The position numbers were made by a program, and so were the translations under genes. Positions 40,663 to 51,802 of a stretch of DNA of 64,000 nucleotides are shown piece by piece; position 1 is the first letter of the stretch, and each line of letters starts with the position of its first letter. The notes beneath the pieces are model-generated. The model searched no databases, was not told where the DNA came from, and was given only the letters and a program-made list of their open reading frames with translations. Source of the DNA: Paramacrobiotus metropolitanus (lineage: Eukaryota > Tardigrada > Eutardigrada > Parachela > Macrobiotidae); the NCBI RefSeq assembly GCF_019649055.1, contig NW_026570327.1, positions 62,001-126,000 on the forward strand. The letters run 5' to 3'.

Positions 40663-40950
40663 CTAAATGTCCTAAAAGTAATAAAATTTCTATGAAATTA
40701 CGTAATCCAGCAATCAAATTTGACGTGACGTACTTACGGGAACTGTCGGAAAAAATAAAAAATTTAAAACTGAAAATCTTCAAAATCTAACACGAACCAA
40801 ATCAGCGATATTTTCTCAAGAAATCAGAAATACTAGATATCTACAAGTAGAACTTAAACGTGCATTTGTATATACCGTACATCAACATACCGTACATCAA
40901 CATCCATTTACGTAATTTTTTTAGATTATTTTGGTTGTTAAGCTTCTTAC

Positions 40951-41416
40951 CGGATAAAACGGAGACATCGTCAGGAGCTTCCTGCTCGCCCTTCTTTCGC
41001 CCGTGCTCTCCTGCAGAAACCATGAAGGCCGCTGTCCGCTTACGCATCGCCATTTGCTCAGCATGGGCCTTAGATTTCTGCTGACGCGTTTCATCGGCGC
41101 TCTTTACAAGAGTCAAAATTTCCTGGAGTAGCTGCTCCATCTTGTTGTAGTCCTCCTCCGTTCCACTTCGGAACTTCTTTTGCAGGTCGTTCGCCTGGAA
41201 TGCCGTGATGAGCACGCTGAGTCTTTCTTTCACAGCTCGGACGTCCAGAGACTTTGAAAACAGAGCAGCATCGTTCAGACTTTTCACCACATCCATCCAC
41301 GCTTTCTCCTTGTTTTCAGCCGCATAGGGATTAAAATGTTGGACTTCACCCAACAAAGCCAAATCAGCTTTCGCGTAGAATCGATTATAAGTTTTTTTAA
41401 CTAGAGTTTTTTCCAT
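40951..41416 (-). CDS. Harbinger accessory Myb/SANT-like protein
   Basis: Starts MEKTLVKKTYNRFY at 41416. The segment HFNPYAAENKEKAWMDVVKS, followed by a helix-rich RAVKERLSVLITAF, resembles the Myb/SANT-like DNA-binding proteins encoded by animal Harbinger elements. A donor GTAAGA at 40950 suggests splicing to another exon, and the frame otherwise reads on to 40841. C-terminal KKGEQEAPDDVSVLSG. Confidence 0.65.
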
Positions 41417-42302
41417 TATGAACGTTTGTGAAACAACAAGTTAAAAATTAAAATAAAATACTACGTATAATTTGAAAATAACGCACGACTGACACGAGCC
41501 AGTGCACACAAGGCAACCTATGTGTATTACTGCAATATACCGCGGCCAAATTAGATTTTACAGCCTGTTTCGGTGCTCTCCTGGGATTCATATTTTCATT
41601 GTTTATTTCGGCTTTTATCGCCCGACAAAACATATCAGAAGATAGGAAATGTTTTTTTCTATCATTCTGCAAAAACAAAACGGAAATTGGTCCACTACAT
41701 GTTCCACAGCAGCATTTCGCAACAGACACACGATTCAAAGCATAAATTCCGTATTTTACGGAATCGTACGAAACGAATGGGGCTATGACTCACGCAAAAG
41801 AGGCGGAGATTAGTATTAGGGTCCGTATTCGTGGTGCGCAGATTACTTTCTAGTGACAACACTTGAGTATGACTCTTGAACGGGCTGTTCTCCGTGTACA
41901 TCATCACTACGATGTAACCCTGCAGAGCACTATTATTGAAAGTCGTATCGATCATGACTTGACTGGATTTCCGATCGGTATCAATGTAAGATCACTATGA
42001 ATATAATTGTGATTTTCACGCATATACTGTTATGGTCAATTATATCGTTCCCGCGCTTTTTGTTTTGATTCTTCACACAGTCTCACAACCGTCAACACCG
42101 CTAGTAGAAAAAAGTAGCGGAGAACGCTAAACTAAAAGTAAAACCATTTAACAATCACTGCAGACAATTCACGAATTAAATCCTGTAATTCACAAACGTG
42201 CCGCAAAAACTTTCTAGTCACATTTTGTAAATCATTAAAATGATTAAGGAAATTGTCACAAAAGCAACTGGATATCCATAACCTCTTAATACGTCAGTTT
42301 CT

Positions 42303-44760
42303 TTATTCATCCGTTGCTTTTCGTTTCTTCGGCACTGCACCCATAGCATGCATGCGTGTTTTGTAGAGGTTGATCAGCTTGTTGTTCATCATAGCTTTGA
42401 ACACGGTGAGCTCTTTCATGGGTTGCTGAAGCTTGTAAAGGTCCGTGACATACGCTAAAACAGCACATGATGTCCGTAAATTGTATGTTGCATTGTTTAA
42501 TGTGGATATCCATAAAGAAAAATTATACGAGTACAAATAACACTAAGCGCATACCACAGAATGGAGAAAAACTCACATAAAACGGCCTGCAAAGTGTTTC
42601 GGCCAAGGAGAAAGTCCGCGCCCTGATTGTCGTACTTGTTTTCGTAGCACGCAATAATGCCCTCGTCGCCGCCCATGAGATGCTGAACTAGCTCCCAAGC
42701 ATGCCCGATACATGTTTTGGGATTCCAGATGGGACACTTCACCTTGCAGTCGTCAAGGATGGTCTCGTAGACATAAATGTCGTATCCTTTTCGCAGCTGA
42801 ACACTTCCATCGGATTTGGATTGCCAGTACCAGATGAACTTCTTGTAGCCTCCTTGGTTCATTATGATGCGTGGATTATTTTCACGTATGATTACTGCAT
42901 GATCGTTACTGCGGATATCCGTGCCATGTCGATTTCGGACAACTACATTTCTCACGCCGGGCATGCCGGTAATTGGTCGAAGATGACTGGGCAGACCATT
43001 TTTCTCTGCTGAATAAAGCGCAATGTTTTCGGCATTCAAAATAGGTGGGATATCCCGAGCCTGGTTTCGAGCTGCAACAAAATCGTAAAATATTAAGAAC
43101 GATCTAACGTAACGTAAGTCGGGGAACGTGCACTTAACACAACATCTCAAGATCAGCCTTAACTTACCCGCCGGTAAAACAATGGATGTGCTGTTTCCAG
43201 ATAATAAAGTATGGCTATCCAAAGCTTTCGTAACTTCATCTACAAATAACCCGCCCTAAAAGATTTCGTAACAGATAGAGCATCTACGTTTAGCGCTTAC
43301 TCGGTGCACTGGACGTCCCTGGTGTGGGAGAAAAATCATCGTCACAAAGAATACTGTTGTTGCCTAGAAAAGTCATTTCTTTTTTCGGATTACGCACTAA
43401 GGAAAACATGCAACGCAGCAAAATCTGGAATAGGCGATGAAGAAATTAACCAGTTTTATTCAGCCGCATTACTGCTGTTTGCACCGACTGATTTCGGATT
43501 ACATATGTTGTTGACGTGCTTGTACTGTAAAGTGCAAAGTATCTTACTGTTTTCAGCAGCATTCAGCGCTCGGTCACACTGCTTTTCTGGAACAGCCGCT
43601 CGTTTCTGTGATGCTTGGATATCCAGCTCAGTAGATTGTAGCCCCCCGCTTAATTCCCCATTATGACCGTTTGCATCTTCAGAATGAACTTCGGCTTGAG
43701 TAGTACCTGTTGCAAACGTTTTCACGAAACATTTAAAAATTAATAAAACTACGTACTTCCGCCAACGAATCTCGCATAATCAGCAATACTTGGCTGCGAA
43801 GATGTAAGCGTGGCGTAATCCTGCCCGTAGAAGCCGGGTGCATGTATACCTAACTCAAAACTTTATATGAAAGATAATGCAGCAAGCGCCGGCAAATCAT
43901 TGTAATTACCCTCCCAAACCGGCGACAACGGTAGTAAATTTAGTGCTGTTGCAATTCCAACATTTTCTAAACAATTAATTTTATCCTTAACGAGTGCAGT
44001 CGAAGTTACACTTCCATTGTACTAACCAACGGTAAGGATATCCTTCGATGGCGTTCGTCCAGTATCAGCTGCATGCATCCCCGGCAACGTATTGCTATCT
44101 ACACAAAGTTCCTTCAGTCTCTCTGCATCCTGTAAAAAAAAACTCATCTAGTTTAACGCATAAAATTATTCGGCGTAACTATGGCACTGTTACAAGGCGG
44201 CACCTTAATAGTTGCATTAGCAGCAGCAAACTAACAGCATCAGAAGGGGAAAATGGATATCCAGCATAAAACGTACTTTTACAGTTCGTCCCGTTTTCTT
44301 GCTTTCTTTAAACTTCTCCACAAGCCGGCACTTCACGTCCTGCGCTTCCTTCTCCGTCTCACATATGTCGGCTATCTCGCATACGTAAAATCCCGCAGTA
44401 AAGCCTTTCGATTTAGGAAACCAGGCCGCGACCTTATCTTCCTTCTGATATTCCGCTCCATAGCTCCCATTCTGTACCTCGTTTTCCAAAAGCCGAAAAG
44501 ATGTCTTTTCTGTGCGTTTACGGGAAAAGTCCACAACTCGAACGCAGCTATCGTGATCACTTACGACGACAAAAAAATCTACAAAAATGCAATACTGCGC
44601 CAAAAGTCATTATGGGTAGGGCCAGCGTACGTTTCTTAGCTTCCTTGCACCGGTGATGGCTATCCAACTCCTGCTGCTTTCGCTCGAATTCTCCCAGTAA
44701 GTCTTTGTTGCGCTCCGAACTGCAGGACCGGCTCCGAGAAGAGCGACGCATAACAGACAT
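42303..44760 (-). CDS. element-encoded protein with a BEN-like C-terminal region (multi-exon)
   Basis: Proposed exons, right to left: 44760-44630 (MSVMRRSSRSRSCSSER), about 44567-44267 (VAAWFPKSKGFTAGFYVCE), 44131-44040 (DAERLKELCVDS, ending SKDILT), about 43848-43760 (PGFYGQDYATLTSS), 43707-43540 (acidic, STELDIQASQ), 43240-43160, about 43072-42577 (ARDIPPIL, HGTDIRSND, HAWELVQHLMGGDEG) and 42461-42303 (TAA). Splice borders are canonical, but internal phases were not all checked. The last two exons have the spacing and helix pattern of a BEN domain, a DNA-binding fold found in some animal transposon proteins, and this is tentative. It is transcribed divergently from the transposase across a gap of about 500 bp. 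The coding exons contain several GGATATCC palindromes, each read as Asp-Ile on this strand. Confidence 0.55.
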
Positions 44761-45266
44761 CTTCAACAGACACAAGAGAAAAGTATGTCAGTAGCACGTA
44801 TAACGTACAAAAGAAAAAAATGCTCGAAGTGCAACTGAAATTTAAATACAAGCAGTTTAACTGCACACTAATAACTAAATGATGGCTTTGCAAGCGCCTC
44901 TCGAAACATCAAAAGATGCCGACAACGGGCAGAGTTGCTACTAAGCCGCCAAAGGCACGCAACGTTAAAATCCACTGAGGTAGTGGAATTCACCACTACA
45001 GCACAGTGGCAACTAGCACTACTTGCATTTCGATGTCCTGTATTGGGAATTCCATTTACGGCGTCGTATGACATAAGACTGGATATCCATTGGCGTTGTT
45101 GTAACTGGCCTTTATTTAAGCGGTTCTTTTATATTTTTATTGGTGGTGGTCTTGTTTCGCAATTTCGTATGCAAAAACTGGTTTTTAACTCGTAAGTTGC
45201 TTTTGCACACATTAGTGTTTAGTTGTAAATATGATAGTCATTTCACTGTGTCCGATTCATTTGACA

Positions 45267-47896
45267 ATGAATCGGAAGAGCACCGGAAATCTCCGAAGAT
45301 TTGCGCCAAAAACCGGTCGTTTGAGCAGGACCAGTATTTATCGCCGACTTTCAAGTTTAAGCGAGAATTCTGCTGAAGGATATCCTGATGCACTTGCAGG
45401 TAGCTAATCGTAACGGGAAACGTTTTGCAACAGTAAGATGTGAAGTACCTTAATTTTAAGTACTGCATAATTCAAAACTTCCGTAGATCGCGCGGAGAAA
45501 ATCGGCACTACCTTTCACGAGTTTGAGTTCCATGACAGCAGCAGCTACTGTGAAGCTAGTTCAGCTAAAGAATTCGCAACAGACGGATATCCGGATGAGA
45601 GCGTGACTGGATGCTCGACTTCAGCTGATTTACTGTATGATGGATGCGATGTTCTTCGGAAGGAAGCTGTTGAAGAACTCCTGCTTATTTTTCAAAAATC
45701 AAATTGCAGTAATGCGGTTCAAGAACGAATATTGTCTTTTATCGGCCGGATACTCCCTCCGGGCCACAATTTTCCATCGTCCCATTTTCTTTTGACGGCG
45801 TTTGTACGTAAAGAAAGACCGGAAATTTTCGAATATATTCATTGTGTTGAAAAAGGAACTGCCCGCGTTGCTGCCGAACCTTTAGTCTGCTGTCAGGAGA
45901 CGGAGATCACCAGAGCCAACCATGTGAAATTTTATTGTTTATCGTTAAAGGATAGCCTGCTTCAACTGTTAAAAGATCCAGATGTTTTGGAACTTATTAG
46001 TGCTCCAATCCCGGGGAATTATTTGGATATCCAGCATGGAAACAGATTATCTATGCTACCTTGCAGAAGCAACTGCCGACGTTTGACATTATTGCTTTGG
46101 TTTGACGGGGCGGATATAAAGGGAAGAAAAAACAGCTTATGGGTGGTAGCGTGGACGGTGGCTGAGTTGCCTTTGCAGTACCGGTGGAGGTTTGCGCGTT
46201 TTGCCACAGTATATGTGGGCCAGAAGAAGCCATCTGCAAACGTTTTATTCAAAACCTTAGTGACAGAGTTGCTGGCTATCCAAAACGATTCACTGTGTGT
46301 AAAGTCCGGAGAAAATACTCTCCATTTTGACGTCGACATTGGACTGTGTTGCTGTCATTCTCCGGCACGAGCTGACATCCGAGGGAGCCGGCTTTACAAT
46401 TCAAAACAGCGTGGTTGTACAAGCTGTATAATGGATGGGATGCAAGAAAACAAAAGCGTTCGTTACCCTTACACTCACGGTGATGCTGTCTGCTGGAGAA
46501 CGAACGATGGCCTAAGACAACAAGCTATCAACTGGTTACAAAAGAGAATGACAGCACAGTCAGCGAAAGAGATTCTGGAGTCGGAAGTCGGGGAGGATGG
46601 AATCAATAATTATTCTGAGATGCTCAGAGTTCCAGCGGCAAGATTTGACATGATTAAGTGCTTCCCACATGACTTAATGCACGTGATAACGAACATATCT
46701 GAACGATTGTTTTTCATTCTAAAAGAAGTGGATATCCAAGATCTACCAATTGCAAAGCAGTTCAATTTTGGCAGCCAAAAACGTTTATTAGACAAGCGCT
46801 GTGTGGACCTGCTGAGTGGCATTATGGAAACGGAAATCAAGTATCCCAGTAATTATAACCGAATCCCCGGTCCTCTCAACGAAACAAATGACTATAAAAA
46901 CAGTCAGTTCCTGCATTTATTCCTTCATACGTTTCCCTTATTGTTTCAAAGGAGGGGTGACAACGTTGACCAGGCTGTGCACCCATCTGTGCGAAAGTTA
47001 TTGCTGACATTTTCTTATGCGCTGACACATCTTTTATGCGATTATTATTCTTCGGATAGCAATCCAAAGGATATCCTGATTAACCGTGGTAAAATGGCTA
47101 AGCGACTGACCAGTGATTTCGTGCATATGGCAAACCTGTATTTCGGCACTGCACATATGACTTATGCCTTTCACCAGCTCTTGCACTGCTGCGAAAACTA
47201 TTTGGACTTTGGTCCGGCTTACGCATGGAGCGCCTGGGGATAGGAAGCGCTATTCAATCCGTTAAAGAAGAAGCAGCATGGAACTAAAAACGCAGGAAAA
47301 GAGCTAGCTAACAAGGTAGCACACGATCAGGCAGTTAGATCTGTGATCGGTGTTTCAAAGTCTGCTTGTGATTTTATTGTATCGGGATATCCCAAGTCTT
47401 TTAACACGCTCCCGGGTGAGCAAATCGCGGCACTGGAAAGGTCAACCGGACTAAAGCTTGGAGACCATAGCATCAATGCCCGAGTTTACAGTAGCATTCG
47501 TTTTGCTGATGGAAGGATAGCAGAATCTGTCAACTCTCATCACTTGACTGCTCGGTGCAATGCGGTGTGGAGGCTCAAAATTCAAAGATCGTCCAGATTT
47601 TAAATTTTGTGACATTGCAAACCGTTTCTGAAAAAGCGACTTACGTCATCGCGAAGTATTTATCGGCGGCCAGCAGTGCTGTTCCTGTGGTTTGGAAGGA
47701 AGCGGGAATCGCTTCGAGCAGCCCTACTAACCTTGAGATACCGGTGTTGTATAGACAAACGCCCCTGAACCAGCCAAGAAGCGATGCAGTAGTTGCGGTG
47801 GAACAACTTGATATCCCTTTGTTTGGTATAAACTCTAGATGCAAGCTGTTCGTTACGTATCTTTGTCCTGCAGTGAAAAACGTGCCATCAGACTAA
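45267..47896 (+). pseudogene. CACTA/EnSpm (Tnp2-like) transposase with in-frame TAG and a frameshift
   Basis: Exon 1 is 45267 to about 45409 (MNRKSTGNLRRFAPKTGRLS, then RTSIYRRLSSLS). Exon 2 opens near 45490 and reads to TAG at 47241-47243, then continues in the same frame to about 47575, then one base shifted to 47896. Key blocks are LLLWFDGADIKGRKNSLW and LPLQYRWRFA, then GQKKPSANVLFK (the DG...W...LP..R pattern of Tnp2-type transposases), FDVDIGLCCCHSPARADIRG and GCTSCIMDGM (second Asp region and zinc-like Cys pair), FPHDLMHVI, KQFNFGSQKR and MTYAFHQLLHC, then GPAYAWSAWG. The TAG comes directly before EALFNPLKKKQHG, where the family has its conserved Glu, so the truncated protein would lack that residue. 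TAG may be a nonsense change of an aromatic codon. The enzyme should cut the CCCATAAA ends. Confidence 0.78.
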
Positions 47897-48280
47897 TACG
47901 GTTTTACATTACAGCTGTTTTTTGTTAAACAACTTTTTGATGCAGGCAATAATACTTGTTTTCTATAGCTGGATATCCAGATGAATAATGTACACGGTAA
48001 ATCTGTGTTTAACGATGAAATCGAACAATTCTTCACCCAATACATTCTACGTGATCATAAAAATATCAGTCGGTGTACTTAACTTTTGCCACTTGTTACC
48101 CAGATATGGACAGGATACAAAATAAACAGGTAGTAGTGAACGAGCATCTAGACGTTACGATCGAAAATAATCGCTTAACGCAATCACGACTTTATAAGCA
48201 CTCACCAGTCAGTGCTACTCCACAACGTGTAAAAAAAACAATGACAGACTTTCTGCCCACAATACCGACCAATTACTCTA

Positions 48281-49940
48281 TCACAAAAGAAAGAACAATT
48301 CCGTTTCCAATACGAAACGCTCACCACCCTCGACCAAATCCGGACCATTGAGCGCAACATTGAGATTCCGCACAAGGGCGCCTTCACGCAGCGTGGCACA
48401 ACCGAAACAAAATTCGGAAAAAAGTAATTCTGTGCAGCATCTAATGAACAGCCATAAAAAGTGCAGCGAGAACACAAGTCAGATTCCTTATCAACTTATC
48501 ACGGTGGGATATCCCGCATCGTTTAACCTCCATGAATCTCAAACGCAAAATCTCCAGCCTGGTTGTACTGCAGCGCAACGTCACCGTTGATTCCGTTCCC
48601 GCGGCGCAGTCGGCGATGGAACTCTTTGCCAACCGGAAAAACGCGTCCATTCGGTGGCAGCAGATCATCGTAGAGCGCCCCGTCCATAAACGGGCAGACG
48701 CTGGCATGGTACGTTGCGTCCGCGCTTGTACTCCCCGTCGGGCCGCGTACCGGCAAGTGACACTTTTCGCACTCAAAACCACCTTGCATCTACCAAAAAC
48801 AACAGATACAGGGATATCCCGAATATCGATTTTGGGTACTACAATAAATATACGCACAAACTGTTCTCGATGGATATCCATCACATGCTGATTCAGGCGG
48901 TGAGCCACGGGATCCGCCGGGCAATACGGGCATCGAACCCGATGAATGTAGTGGCCTGAATCGCGCTGCTCACGCCTAATAAAAGAAACGTTACACTCTT
49001 TATTGCGCTGTAATTTTACTTATTAACTTGCATTTGGCGGATGTGATGTTCACAGCTACGAATGCAGTCGCGAACGCGTTGGAAGGAATAAGCTCCATCA
49101 GCTATCAAATGCTCTGTGTGGACAACATTTGCGAGTTTGGGGATGCCGCAGTGCAGCGCCAGCTGCATGAAAAACTGTAAAAAACGACACCATGTTTATG
49201 TGCTTCTAGTTTCTTTGACTTAACGTCTGCAAATGGATATCCAGACTAAAATGACTTACTGATTTATCACGAAAAGAAAATACCACATCGTACATATACA
49301 GTATTCCGCATTTTTAGCACACTGTATTACCGTAAGCTGTATACTTGTTTATCACAAATAGACAGTGACAGACTATTCTACCTGCGGGTCACGGTCAGCA
49401 CCAACAGCAAACGGACGCAAGAACGCATCAAAGAAAACCACACGAAAGTAACTGTTTCCCGTACGCCAGCGCAGTCCGTCTGGCAGCACAACTGCCTTGA
49501 TAACTTCTTCTTTCACTCGCCAACGTTTCATGAACTGGCCCAAGTTCACTATATCCGAAAAATTCCAACGATCCAGCACCATTGCCGAATGAACTTCCTT
49601 CCCAATTGTCGGGATATCCCCATTGCTGCAACCAATTGAACTTGCCACTACATATGTACATTTTGTGCACGCAAACTAGATACAATATTGTCAAAAAATA
49701 ATTTCATACACGCTACTGCCAACGCTTCGAAGACTTTCAGGAAATGAATGTCAGCGGCTGGAACAACTTCCAAATTCTGGAGGGTGATGGGGATATCCCG
49801 ATACAGTTCAGCGCTAAGATCAACCACGACGAACAAACCCGCATGAACCTGATGATTCATGATTTCTTGGACAACACCACTCTGCCAATCCAGTTGCTGT
49901 GCCATTTTGACGCAGATATAAATGGGAGTTTTAAGGAAAC
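48281..49940 (-). CDS. element-encoded C2H2-type zinc-finger protein (multi-exon, start unresolved)
   Basis: Exons, right to left: about 49940-49730 (DWQSGVVQEIMNHQ, YRDIPITLQN), 49640-49395 (NGDIPTIGKEVHS, RWRVKEEVIKAVVLPDG), about 49170-49030 (MQLALHCGIPKLANVVHTEH), about 48970-48858 (SGHYIHRVRCPYCPAD, NQHVMDIHREQF), 48789-48528 (GGFECEKCHLPVRG, HASVCPFMDG) and 48429-48281 (LREGALVRNLNVALNGP, stop). The fourth exon holds a C-x2-C-x12-H-x4-H finger, and the fifth has CxxC...HxxxC. The last two exons join in phase across a 98-bp intron, itself bearing one palindrome copy. The start codon and the junction near 49.65 kb are unclear. A DNA-binding partner of the transposase is inferred. It is convergent with the transposase gene. 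Confidence 0.55.
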
Positions 49941-50368
49941 AAAAATATCTCAGGAACAAGAACAAAGTACGAATGTTTGGGAAGTACCAAAGAACACTTT
50001 CACAAAGAAATGAAAACACAAGGCTCAAGCCAAAAATCTGCTTGATCACGCTCCTCAATGCAGGTCACATTATACGGTACGTACCGTATAACGTGTACGT
50101 TCTACGCCGACTACGCGTATCCCGCTCACTTTCGTGCGCACGCGGCATATGCGGTATGCTTTTGTTTTGCACATAGTTCCAATACGGCACTGCTGCAATA
50201 TGACTTTAAGGCTGATCGAGAATGTAATATTTAATCTGCCCACGATGAACTACTGATATCTATGTGTCCTGGCTTAATTTTAAATCTAACGTTGTATGAC
50301 TTGGATCTGGGCGGAAGCCTTCTTCGAAGCAACCGAAAAAGATTCAAATTGTAGTCCTGACAGCCGTT

Positions 50369-50380
50369 TTTCTTTATGGG
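50369..50380. repeat. right terminal inverted repeat and GAT target duplication
   Basis: TTTCTTTATGGG, followed by GAT (50381-50383). It is the inverted partner of the left end. Confidence 0.75.
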
Positions 50381-51802
50381 GATAGGCTTCGGCGTCGTTG
50401 ATTTTAACATTTTGCAGACAAGCGGCATAAAGCAGACTTCCTTGAACATAATGTACATACGTCTGGACTTCCTTTAAAAAAGACTTGACCTCCATGCTTG
50501 GTTCGCTCCTAAAGAATGCCATAGTTTGCGTATGCGAGCAAAATAACATGTTGATTGCTGTGGAAGGTACCCACGGACTAATAAAAACAATATCGAGACA
50601 GTACTGTCGTCGATCTGGTCGGCTCAAATCCTTGACCAGCGACTGCATCGTTCCAATGGTGATGTGCCCGGAAACCACAATGTGGTGCACACCGCGCTCC
50701 GGTTGGTAAGGCGCGGCGAATTTGTGCCAGTTGCTGATGATTTCGTATATTTCTGGTACTGCCGAGGCAAACAATGCCTGAAATAATATAATGATGATTT
50801 CTGTGGATTACAGAAATTAGTTAACAAAAAAAGGGTAACAATGACTGCCAAAAAAACTGTCGTACCAAAACTCCCACTATCAGCATAATGCAGAAGATCT
50901 GGCCAAGAGTCGATTTGGGTGAAATGTCGCCGAATCCTACTGTCGATCTGCGGGAAACGTTGATTGGTTTCTTCTCGAAAATTCAAGCACGTAATTTAAT
51001 TTTCAAATATTTTATGATGGGGTCGATAGATTTTTATGCAGCCGATTTCAAAGTGACAACGTACAAAGTGACAACGGACATGTACACCCATTCCCAGTAT
51101 GACTTGTCCTGACGAGTAGCATCGCTGTCAACTTGCAACCAGTCATCCCCAGTTAATTCCAGCTAAAAAAATTAGTAAATTTTAAAATGTGTTATAACTT
51201 ATAACTAGTGTCGCCTTAAAATGGATACAACGTTGCTTAACGATGTACGCATTCGGCCATCAACCTTTAACAAATTAAAAAGTTAGAATTTTTTATTGTT
51301 AGAAGTTTTTTTACGATTTCATGAATTGATGTTCGTGAATTAAAGTGAATTCAGGTGACAGAGTTAAAAAAAGAATATCACAGTGCAACAACAAAAACAA
51401 CAATATTGACTCATTACTATTAGAATGAAGTGAAATTGATCCATTATTCTTCATACTTCATAGTATATGTACTGCAATGTATCGTTCTTACTTCTTACAA
51501 GTTACATTAATTTTTATACTACGTAAAACGTAGACCCTGTCGACCGCCCGCAGCGGACGAACGGAGTTGAGACAACGAACCCCGCTCGGTGACAGCCAGC
51601 GTGCAAAGTATTGCGTTCAGCACTTTAGCTGCTAAACTTTAGCAACAAGAGTATGACGTATTGTACAGCGAATTAAGCGTATCCTCCCAGCCACCAAGAA
51701 AGAAGTTCCAGAGTTCGTTAATTTTAATTTTTAGGAATCAGCTGTTATGAGTGTTATCATAATTATTATGCTACGTAGATATAGCATGTTGAATATCTTA
51801 AA

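Follow-up and report, generated by a model that had tools for sequence, protein, structure and literature searches.

In En/Spm (CACTA) transposons, TNPA/TNP1 is described as an accessory DNA-binding protein whose subterminal repeats are also used in cis by non-autonomous copies (PMC2613891). VANC, a protein of the Arabidopsis VANDAL elements, is reported to counteract silencing; its motifs are YAGTATTAY and AGTTGTCC, and its effect spans the whole element (PMC5735166). Here we analyze a stretch of 64,000 nucleotides from the tardigrade Paramacrobiotus metropolitanus (contig NW_026570327.1, positions 62,001 to 126,000 of the forward strand; referred to as the window; genome size 169.8 Mb), in which a putative Mirage-like DNA transposon carries many copies of the palindrome GGATATCC. 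The bases flanking these copies vary from site to site and are paired with each other. We refer to such dispersed sites as tags.

Similar to En/Spm TNPA, the tardigrade system has an element-encoded binder (here a candidate), a short motif that varies between families, and use in cis by non-autonomous copies. However, TNPA repeats are subterminal, whereas the tardigrade tags tile the whole element (25 sites, 42269-49799), coding exons included, and the portion of the TNPA account used here does not mention covarying palindromic arms (PMC2613891). VANC is likewise an element-encoded protein (again a candidate in our case) with short motifs that change between related families, but these motifs are described as non-palindromic, tandem and non-coding, whereas the tardigrade tags are single, spread out and present in coding DNA too. 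Short palindromic sites are shared with the BEN proteins NAC1, Insv and Elba1, although BEN membership of the element protein is a candidate assignment only. Binding by the NAC1 BEN domain survives mutations outside the CATG core, and the sections of the source that describe known sites give them fixed bases and no coupling of outer positions (PMC7764960). In the open-access texts searched, as far as their available parts go, no counterpart of the covarying-arm rule was found.

Highly iterated short tags spread through DNA are also represented by HIP1 palindromes and bacterial DNA uptake sequences. These are dispersed likewise, but they are bacterial and do not involve transposon families, and we know of no coupled variable arms among them. 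To our knowledge, pairing-coupled recognition has no precedent in any transposon accessory protein. The arm-coupling rule would be the new part of the present system, the tag system itself resembling TNPA and VANC.

Paired outer bases in the window element

All exact and one-mismatch occurrences of GGATATCC in the window were listed. The span 42269-49799 contains 21 exact sites, flanked by T..A (10 sites), G..C (6), A..T (3) and C..G (2); the flanks are complementary in 21/21. Four additional sites differ by one central change (GGCTATCC at 43213, 44658 and 46274, and GGATAGCC at 45950), and although this makes their cores asymmetric, the outer bases are paired in all four. The recount agrees with the sequence-only reading, which had reported complementary flanks at exactly these 21 sites and four variants and had argued that pairing is preserved rather than one outer base; all four pairs do occur. 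Its estimate of chance pairing, about 0.26 per site, is matched by a background of 0.257 at the outer-base distance in the window. The composition of the flanks predicts 7.1 pairs among the 21, and 21 was reached in 0 of 20,000 shuffles in which right flanks were permuted among exact sites. The paired outer bases of the window element are confirmed as a real observation.

Three exact copies of GGATATCC are located elsewhere in the window, one with paired flanks (19527) and two with unpaired flanks (6267 and 28570), again as previously noted. Inside the span, a one-mismatch site at 47809 (TGATATCC) has unpaired T..C flanks and may be a chance occurrence. Since the second pair out is complementary in only 3/25 sites, the symmetry of the window tags ends sharply at 10 bp; pairs 2 to 6 out are at the level expected from permutation of flanks. 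Target-site duplication was ruled out as the source of the flanks, which are complementary rather than identical. In addition, the second base past the core on the plus-strand side is G at 13/25 sites and C at one, and the mirrored position is C at 6/25; this base asymmetry is possibly an orientation signal.

The tags of the window element are single sites separated by gaps of 60-586 bp, and 14/25 fall in frames taken for exons, the others outside (exon borders are approximate). Sequence similarities around the sites are short and imperfect (16-27 bases), apart from one exact 16-base inverted match between 47378 and 49790.

Coupled arms in related elements of the genome

We examined 20 element loci, including the window; ten further places matched by the family A protein are outside this set. 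Dispersed motifs were present in 16/20 loci, and palindrome, word and dyad scans revealed no motif in the other four (L022, L032, L033 and L039). Four families, W, D, B and A, have coupled flanks, with different cores and arm lengths. Family W, NGGATATCCN, comprises the window element (21/21 paired) and its diverged copy on contig C1 (20/21), where two of three sites with central asymmetry also have paired outer bases. Family D, NGGAGCTCCN, is paired in 16/17, 18/19 and 12/14 sites of L042, L043 and L047, respectively. For families A and B, every GTCGAC in the stretch was counted, chance ones too. In family B, NNGTCGACNN, the first pair is complementary in 21/21, 21/21, 24/24 and 19/20 sites of copies B27, B30, B28 and B31, the second in 19/21, 19/21, 22/24 and 19/20, and the third in about 60%. 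Family A has the form TG-NNN-GTCGAC-N'N'N'-CA, with TT in place of TG at 2/18 paired sites of copy A24; it has GTCGAC in common with family B and different arms. Pairs 1 to 5 are complementary in 18, 19, 18, 17 and 19 of 19 sites in A24, 17, 17, 18, 17 and 16 of 18 in A29, 15, 15, 16, 14 and 16 of 17 in A26, and 18, 17, 17, 17 and 20 of 22 in A25, and pair 6 in only 3, 2, 1 and 2 sites, respectively.

Coupling in W (including the C1 copy), D, A and B far exceeds the expectation from flank composition. The symmetry ends sharply at a family-specific length in W and A, and fades over one further pair in B and D. Some extra pairing was observed at the second position out in family D (10/17, p 0.007, in L042; 8/19, p 0.09, in L043). 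The number of free arm pairs is one, two or three, one family being closed by the mostly fixed TG..CA, and tags are thus individually variable yet palindromic: A24 alone has 14 different 5-base arms and 12 different free triplets (TGAAG and TGCAT each occur three times).

Two other families are tagged and lack clear coupling. Family C (L038 and L041) contains GGAAATCC in both orientations, a longer symmetric but uncoupled motif with flanks paired in 8/24 (p 0.45) and 11/23 sites (p 0.04, marginal) against 7.3 and 6.7 expected. Its third position out is paired in 11/24 and 11/23 sites, which flank composition alone explains. Family E (L040) contains 22 exact copies of GCGANNTCGC, the centre being self-complementary in 6 and the flanks paired in 7. 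Both families illustrate the appearance of nearly additive dimer sites within this type of element. Among the genome-wide matches listed for WGGATATCCW outside the C1 element, 23/36 were paired and 18 were expected, indicating no clear coupling.

Four of the six families space their tags more evenly than expected by chance, with P below 0.001 in 6/10 copies. The coefficient of variation is 0.43 in W, 0.35 in A24, 0.26 in A29, 0.36 in B28, 0.46 in C38 and 0.52 in C41, compared to 0.92-0.95 for random placement (for this test, A24, A29, B28 and E40 were trimmed to 7-8.6 kb).

The sequence-only reading had suggested looking for compensatory changes at orthologous sites. This comparison, which covers copies within one genome, gave a positive answer with few events. 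A24 and A25 are 62% identical overall, whereas identity is 0.935 in the 5-base arms versus 0.622 beside them, and 0.907 versus 0.641 for the free triplets. At the 16 sites where both copies have an intact core, 43/48 free pairs are unchanged and one shows a double change (G..C to A..T); A25 sites with a lost or misaligned core have further broken pairs. Between W and C1, 16 of 17 sites are unchanged and one has a double change (C..G to T..A), with no half-change, and the outer base is identical in 32/34 positions versus 20/34 for the next base out. For the other 8/25 W sites the C1 alignment offers no intact counterpart, four of them appearing as broken pairs; non-coding parts align poorly between these copies, and some such sites may be misaligned. 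Between D43 and D47, 10/13 sites are unchanged and one carries a double change (T..A to A..T), its neighbouring bases being unchanged. B27 and B28 share 41/42 unchanged pairs. At sites intact in both copies, double changes total three, one each in W, A and D, and all are compensatory. Under neutral copying, about 38% of the pairs in W and A should have changed. If complementarity is constrained, the free positions should differ in letter between sites, be conserved within each site and occasionally change together, as seen here.

Tags also occur in elements without genes, where they were kept or gained. Genome-wide, TGNNNGTCGACNNNCA was found in 363 places and the reversed pattern in 236. Among 50 TGNNNGTCGACNNNCA matches listed, 27 lay in clusters of at least two within 3 kb; all three free pairs were matched in 23 of the 27 and in none of the 23 isolated places. 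Clusters in L044, L045 and L046 correspond to a 2.4 kb gene-less element, whose copies are 93-95% identical to each other and one of which has only a 62-base stretch in common with A29. The ends of this element are inverted (CCCTCGTCA) and flanked on either side by TAT in two of three copies. All five arm pairs match at 13/19 of its GTCGAC or GTTGAC sites (5/7, 5/6 and 3/6). The presence of paired-arm tags in gene-less copies implies that the tags act in cis.

A proposed tag function and its alternatives

We propose that the palindromes are family-specific tags tiling a Mirage-like transposon, most likely bound by an element-encoded protein, with arm pairing under selection; we assign this reading a probability of roughly 0.5. 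The tags would mark element DNA as 'self' along its full length, either so that a long element can be drawn into the transposition complex or so that it escapes silencing. Given the coupling, function cannot be reduced to two half-sites added together, and the arms must be complementary. A tentative extension, to which we give rather less than an even chance, is that recognition reads symmetry itself in a non-additive, pairing-coupled manner: the fixed core would name the family and the arms could have any sequence if self-complementary. Sensing might involve intrastrand pairing, in a protein-stabilised cruciform or hairpin, or an assembly that tolerates any arm if the two halves are the same. 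Intrastrand base pairing is the only simple device we can name that checks complementarity regardless of sequence.

The candidate binder is the product of a minus-strand gene of the element with Tudor-like and BEN-like exons. BEN domains bind palindromes (ACATGT for NAC1, CCAATTGG for Insv/Elba1, as described in parts of PMC7764960), and the only PDB chains reached by a profile built on the exons of A, B and C were two NAC1 BEN chains (E-values 0.99 and 1.3); the BEN-like exon was chosen for these reasons. The assignment is weak. The window exon P0002 had no BEN match in PDB, and the best Pfam match of the W exon (frame 42497-43102) was Phage_ABA_S, with an E-value of 0.0018, below the cut-off. 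A profile built from one exon per family detected nothing above threshold in the tag-less loci L032, L033 and L039.

Several observations weigh against the proposal. For the binder, Pfam BEN matched none of 10 frames that included candidate exons of W, A, C, D and E (5/5 families); fold prediction of the BEN-like exon without an alignment gave a predicted local distance difference test (pLDDT) score of 33; the sole BLAST link is between the exons of A and B, and the C, D, E and W exons were matched by eye or by a loose pattern; and the one-exon-per-family profile matches A-E and W by construction. Gene and tags are imperfectly linked: L022, a relative of W whose transposase contains four stops, carries a counterpart homologous to the W exon frame and no recognisable tags. 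Tags of families C and E lack clear coupling (marginal in C41), so pairing is no general need. Spacing in C1, D42, D43 and E40 is not significantly even. Finally, half-changes exist: 4/48 pairs between A24 and A25 (three at two decaying sites and one at a chance core), one between B27 and B28, and one between D43 and D47, where the other of the two remaining changed sites (2/13 in all) is unpaired in both copies.

Hairpin or cruciform formation had been offered by the sequence-only reading as a cause of the pairing. Arms sensed by intrastrand pairing would form small hairpins (stem NGG/CCN with loop ATAT, NNG/CNN with loop TCGA, or TGNNNG/CNNNCA with loop TCGA), in which every base pair would be tolerated and mismatches would be rare, as observed; the W 'loop' tolerates asymmetry, with outer bases paired at all 4/25 such sites and at most of those in C1. 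Predicted folding is appreciable for two A sites (-3.7 and -5.7 kcal/mol, z about -2.7) and one B site (-3.6 kcal/mol, z -1.8). However, it is negligible for three W sites (-0.2 to -1.7 kcal/mol; z 0.25, -0.05 and -1.09, none surpassing shuffles by more than about one standard deviation), an instability that also counts against the main proposal, and the one D site folded prefers another structure. Family C could form a similar stem, yet shows no clear coupling, and a palindromic loop is needless, yet TCGA, ATAT and AGCT are all palindromic. Hairpins as such are therefore less supported than first suggested, and we regard them as possible, though doubtful. Mutational symmetrisation, in which one arm would be rewritten from the other by template switching or short conversion, with no selection involved, is quite unlikely. 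The D double change does resemble a single event, being two transversions at 92% identity with unchanged neighbours, but near-neutral drift of arm pairs would follow, yet pairs are conserved: A has 1/48 double changes versus about 18 expected at 62% identity, and W has 1/17 versus about 6. Symmetry in W and A also stops abruptly rather than fading. The earlier idea of repair-templated symmetrisation loses support in this neutral version.

Ordinary homodimer sites, bound by several related proteins that each prefer their own outer base, would explain symmetric pairs of every kind, and several related elements do coexist in the genome. Against this, the 14 arms of A24 would call for a similar number of proteins, and a little-coupled dimer site already has its examples in families C and E; this explanation is unlikely. 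That a few ancestral 10-mers (an origin which the sequence-only reading had itself set against its own view) or 16-mers were recently amplified appears very unlikely. Some arms do recur in A24, neighbouring sites sometimes have the same arms, and a few W sites show the short similarities described above, including the inverted match. However, the similarity is imperfect and stops within a few bases of the sites, A24 has too varied a set of arms, and the same sites and arms recur in copies whose overall identity is just 62%, which makes the arms old and preserved.

The carrier transposon and the possible meaning of its tags

The tag span coincides with a mobile element (Table 1), whose closest homologue, on contig C1, aligns with the window from about 42.3 kb to about 50.3 kb. 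Its gene content consists of the minus-strand gene with Tudor-like and BEN-like exons, a transposase with an in-frame stop in the window copy, and a third minus-strand gene. The transposase frame P0001 matches Pfam DUF1258 with an E-value of 7.5e-5 and 22.8 bits, below the curated cut-off of 33.1. DUF1258 represents the Mirage group, which adjoins Transposase_21/CACTA (PMC3985635, in the part concerned with this domain), and on this below-cut-off match the window element is a putative Mirage-like DNA transposon of the CACTA-Mirage-Chapaev group. Homologues of P0001 are dispersed over 12 other places of the genome, and more were found with the family A protein. No P0001 homologue was detected at an E-value of 0.001 in a set of 5.8 billion proteins, the family A protein had no match in the viral contigs searched, and neither terminal inverted repeats nor a short target-site duplication was found for the window copy.

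Table 1. Tags and predicted coding features of the window element (positions in the window)
Feature	Position	Strand	Remark
Site 1 TGGATATCCA	42269..42278	.	exact site
Site 2 TGGATATCCA	42503..42512	.	exact site
Site 3 CGGATATCCG	42912..42921	.	exact site; C1 relative has T..A (compensatory)
Site 4 GGGATATCCC	43047..43056	.	exact site
Site 5 TGGCTATCCA	43212..43221	.	central variant
Site 6 TGGATATCCA	43616..43625	.	exact site
Site 7 AGGATATCCT	44035..44044	.	exact site
Site 8 TGGATATCCA	44254..44263	.	exact site
Site 9 TGGCTATCCA	44657..44666	.	central variant
Site 10 TGGATATCCA	45080..45089	.	exact site
Site 11 AGGATATCCT	45377..45386	.	exact site
Site 12 CGGATATCCG	45584..45593	.	exact site
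Site 13 AGGATAGCCT	45949..45958	.	central variant
Site 14 TGGATATCCA	46024..46033	.	exact site
Site 15 TGGCTATCCA	46273..46282	.	central variant
Site 16 TGGATATCCA	46729..46738	.	exact site
Site 17 AGGATATCCT	47068..47077	.	exact site
Site 18 GGGATATCCC	47384..47393	.	exact site
Site 19 TGGATATCCA	47970..47979	.	exact site
Site 20 GGGATATCCC	48506..48515	.	exact site
Site 21 GGGATATCCC	48811..48820	.	exact site
Site 22 TGGATATCCA	48871..48880	.	exact site
Site 23 TGGATATCCA	49234..49243	.	exact site
Site 24 GGGATATCCC	49611..49620	.	exact site
Site 25 GGGATATCCC	49790..49799	.	exact site
Candidate C-terminal exon of BEN-like/Tudor-like gene	42303..42542	-	49% identical to C1 over 65 amino acids
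BEN-like exon P0002 of accompanying gene	42587..43072	-	weak assignment, by eye; frame 62% identical to C1 over 185 amino acids; selected with a loose sequence pattern
Tudor-like exon (open frame), same gene as BEN-like exon	44217..44606	-	SGF29_Tudor E-value 0.0037, below cut-off; 75.5% identical to C1 over 98 amino acids
Mirage/DUF1258-like transposase open frame P0001, 546 amino acids	45603..47243	+	in-frame TAG ends frame; homologous coding on to about 47893 (homology with C1 copy)
Third gene, several exons, Cys/His-rich by eye	48441..50064	-	frames 50-86% identical to C1; approximate borders

Beyond the tags, fragments at 50231-50995 on the minus strand resemble a large-conductance potassium channel of the Slo type. 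They have no tblastn match in the C1 region and are therefore probably host sequence beside the element. On the other side, a 191-amino-acid frame at 40841-41416 (minus strand) resembles what we take to be a Myb/MADF-type domain as carried by other transposons.

Models of protein-DNA recognition normally add up the contributions of half-sites. The four coupled families, whose sites depart from such models at defined positions, would offer a natural data set for non-additive, symmetry-dependent recognition, with the little-coupled or uncoupled families C and E as built-in controls. In addition, the idea of transposon-encoded self-tags, known from TNPA and VANC, would be extended to Mirage-like elements, in which the tags cover the whole element and are kept by gene-less copies, and such tag systems could be sought by sequence alone.

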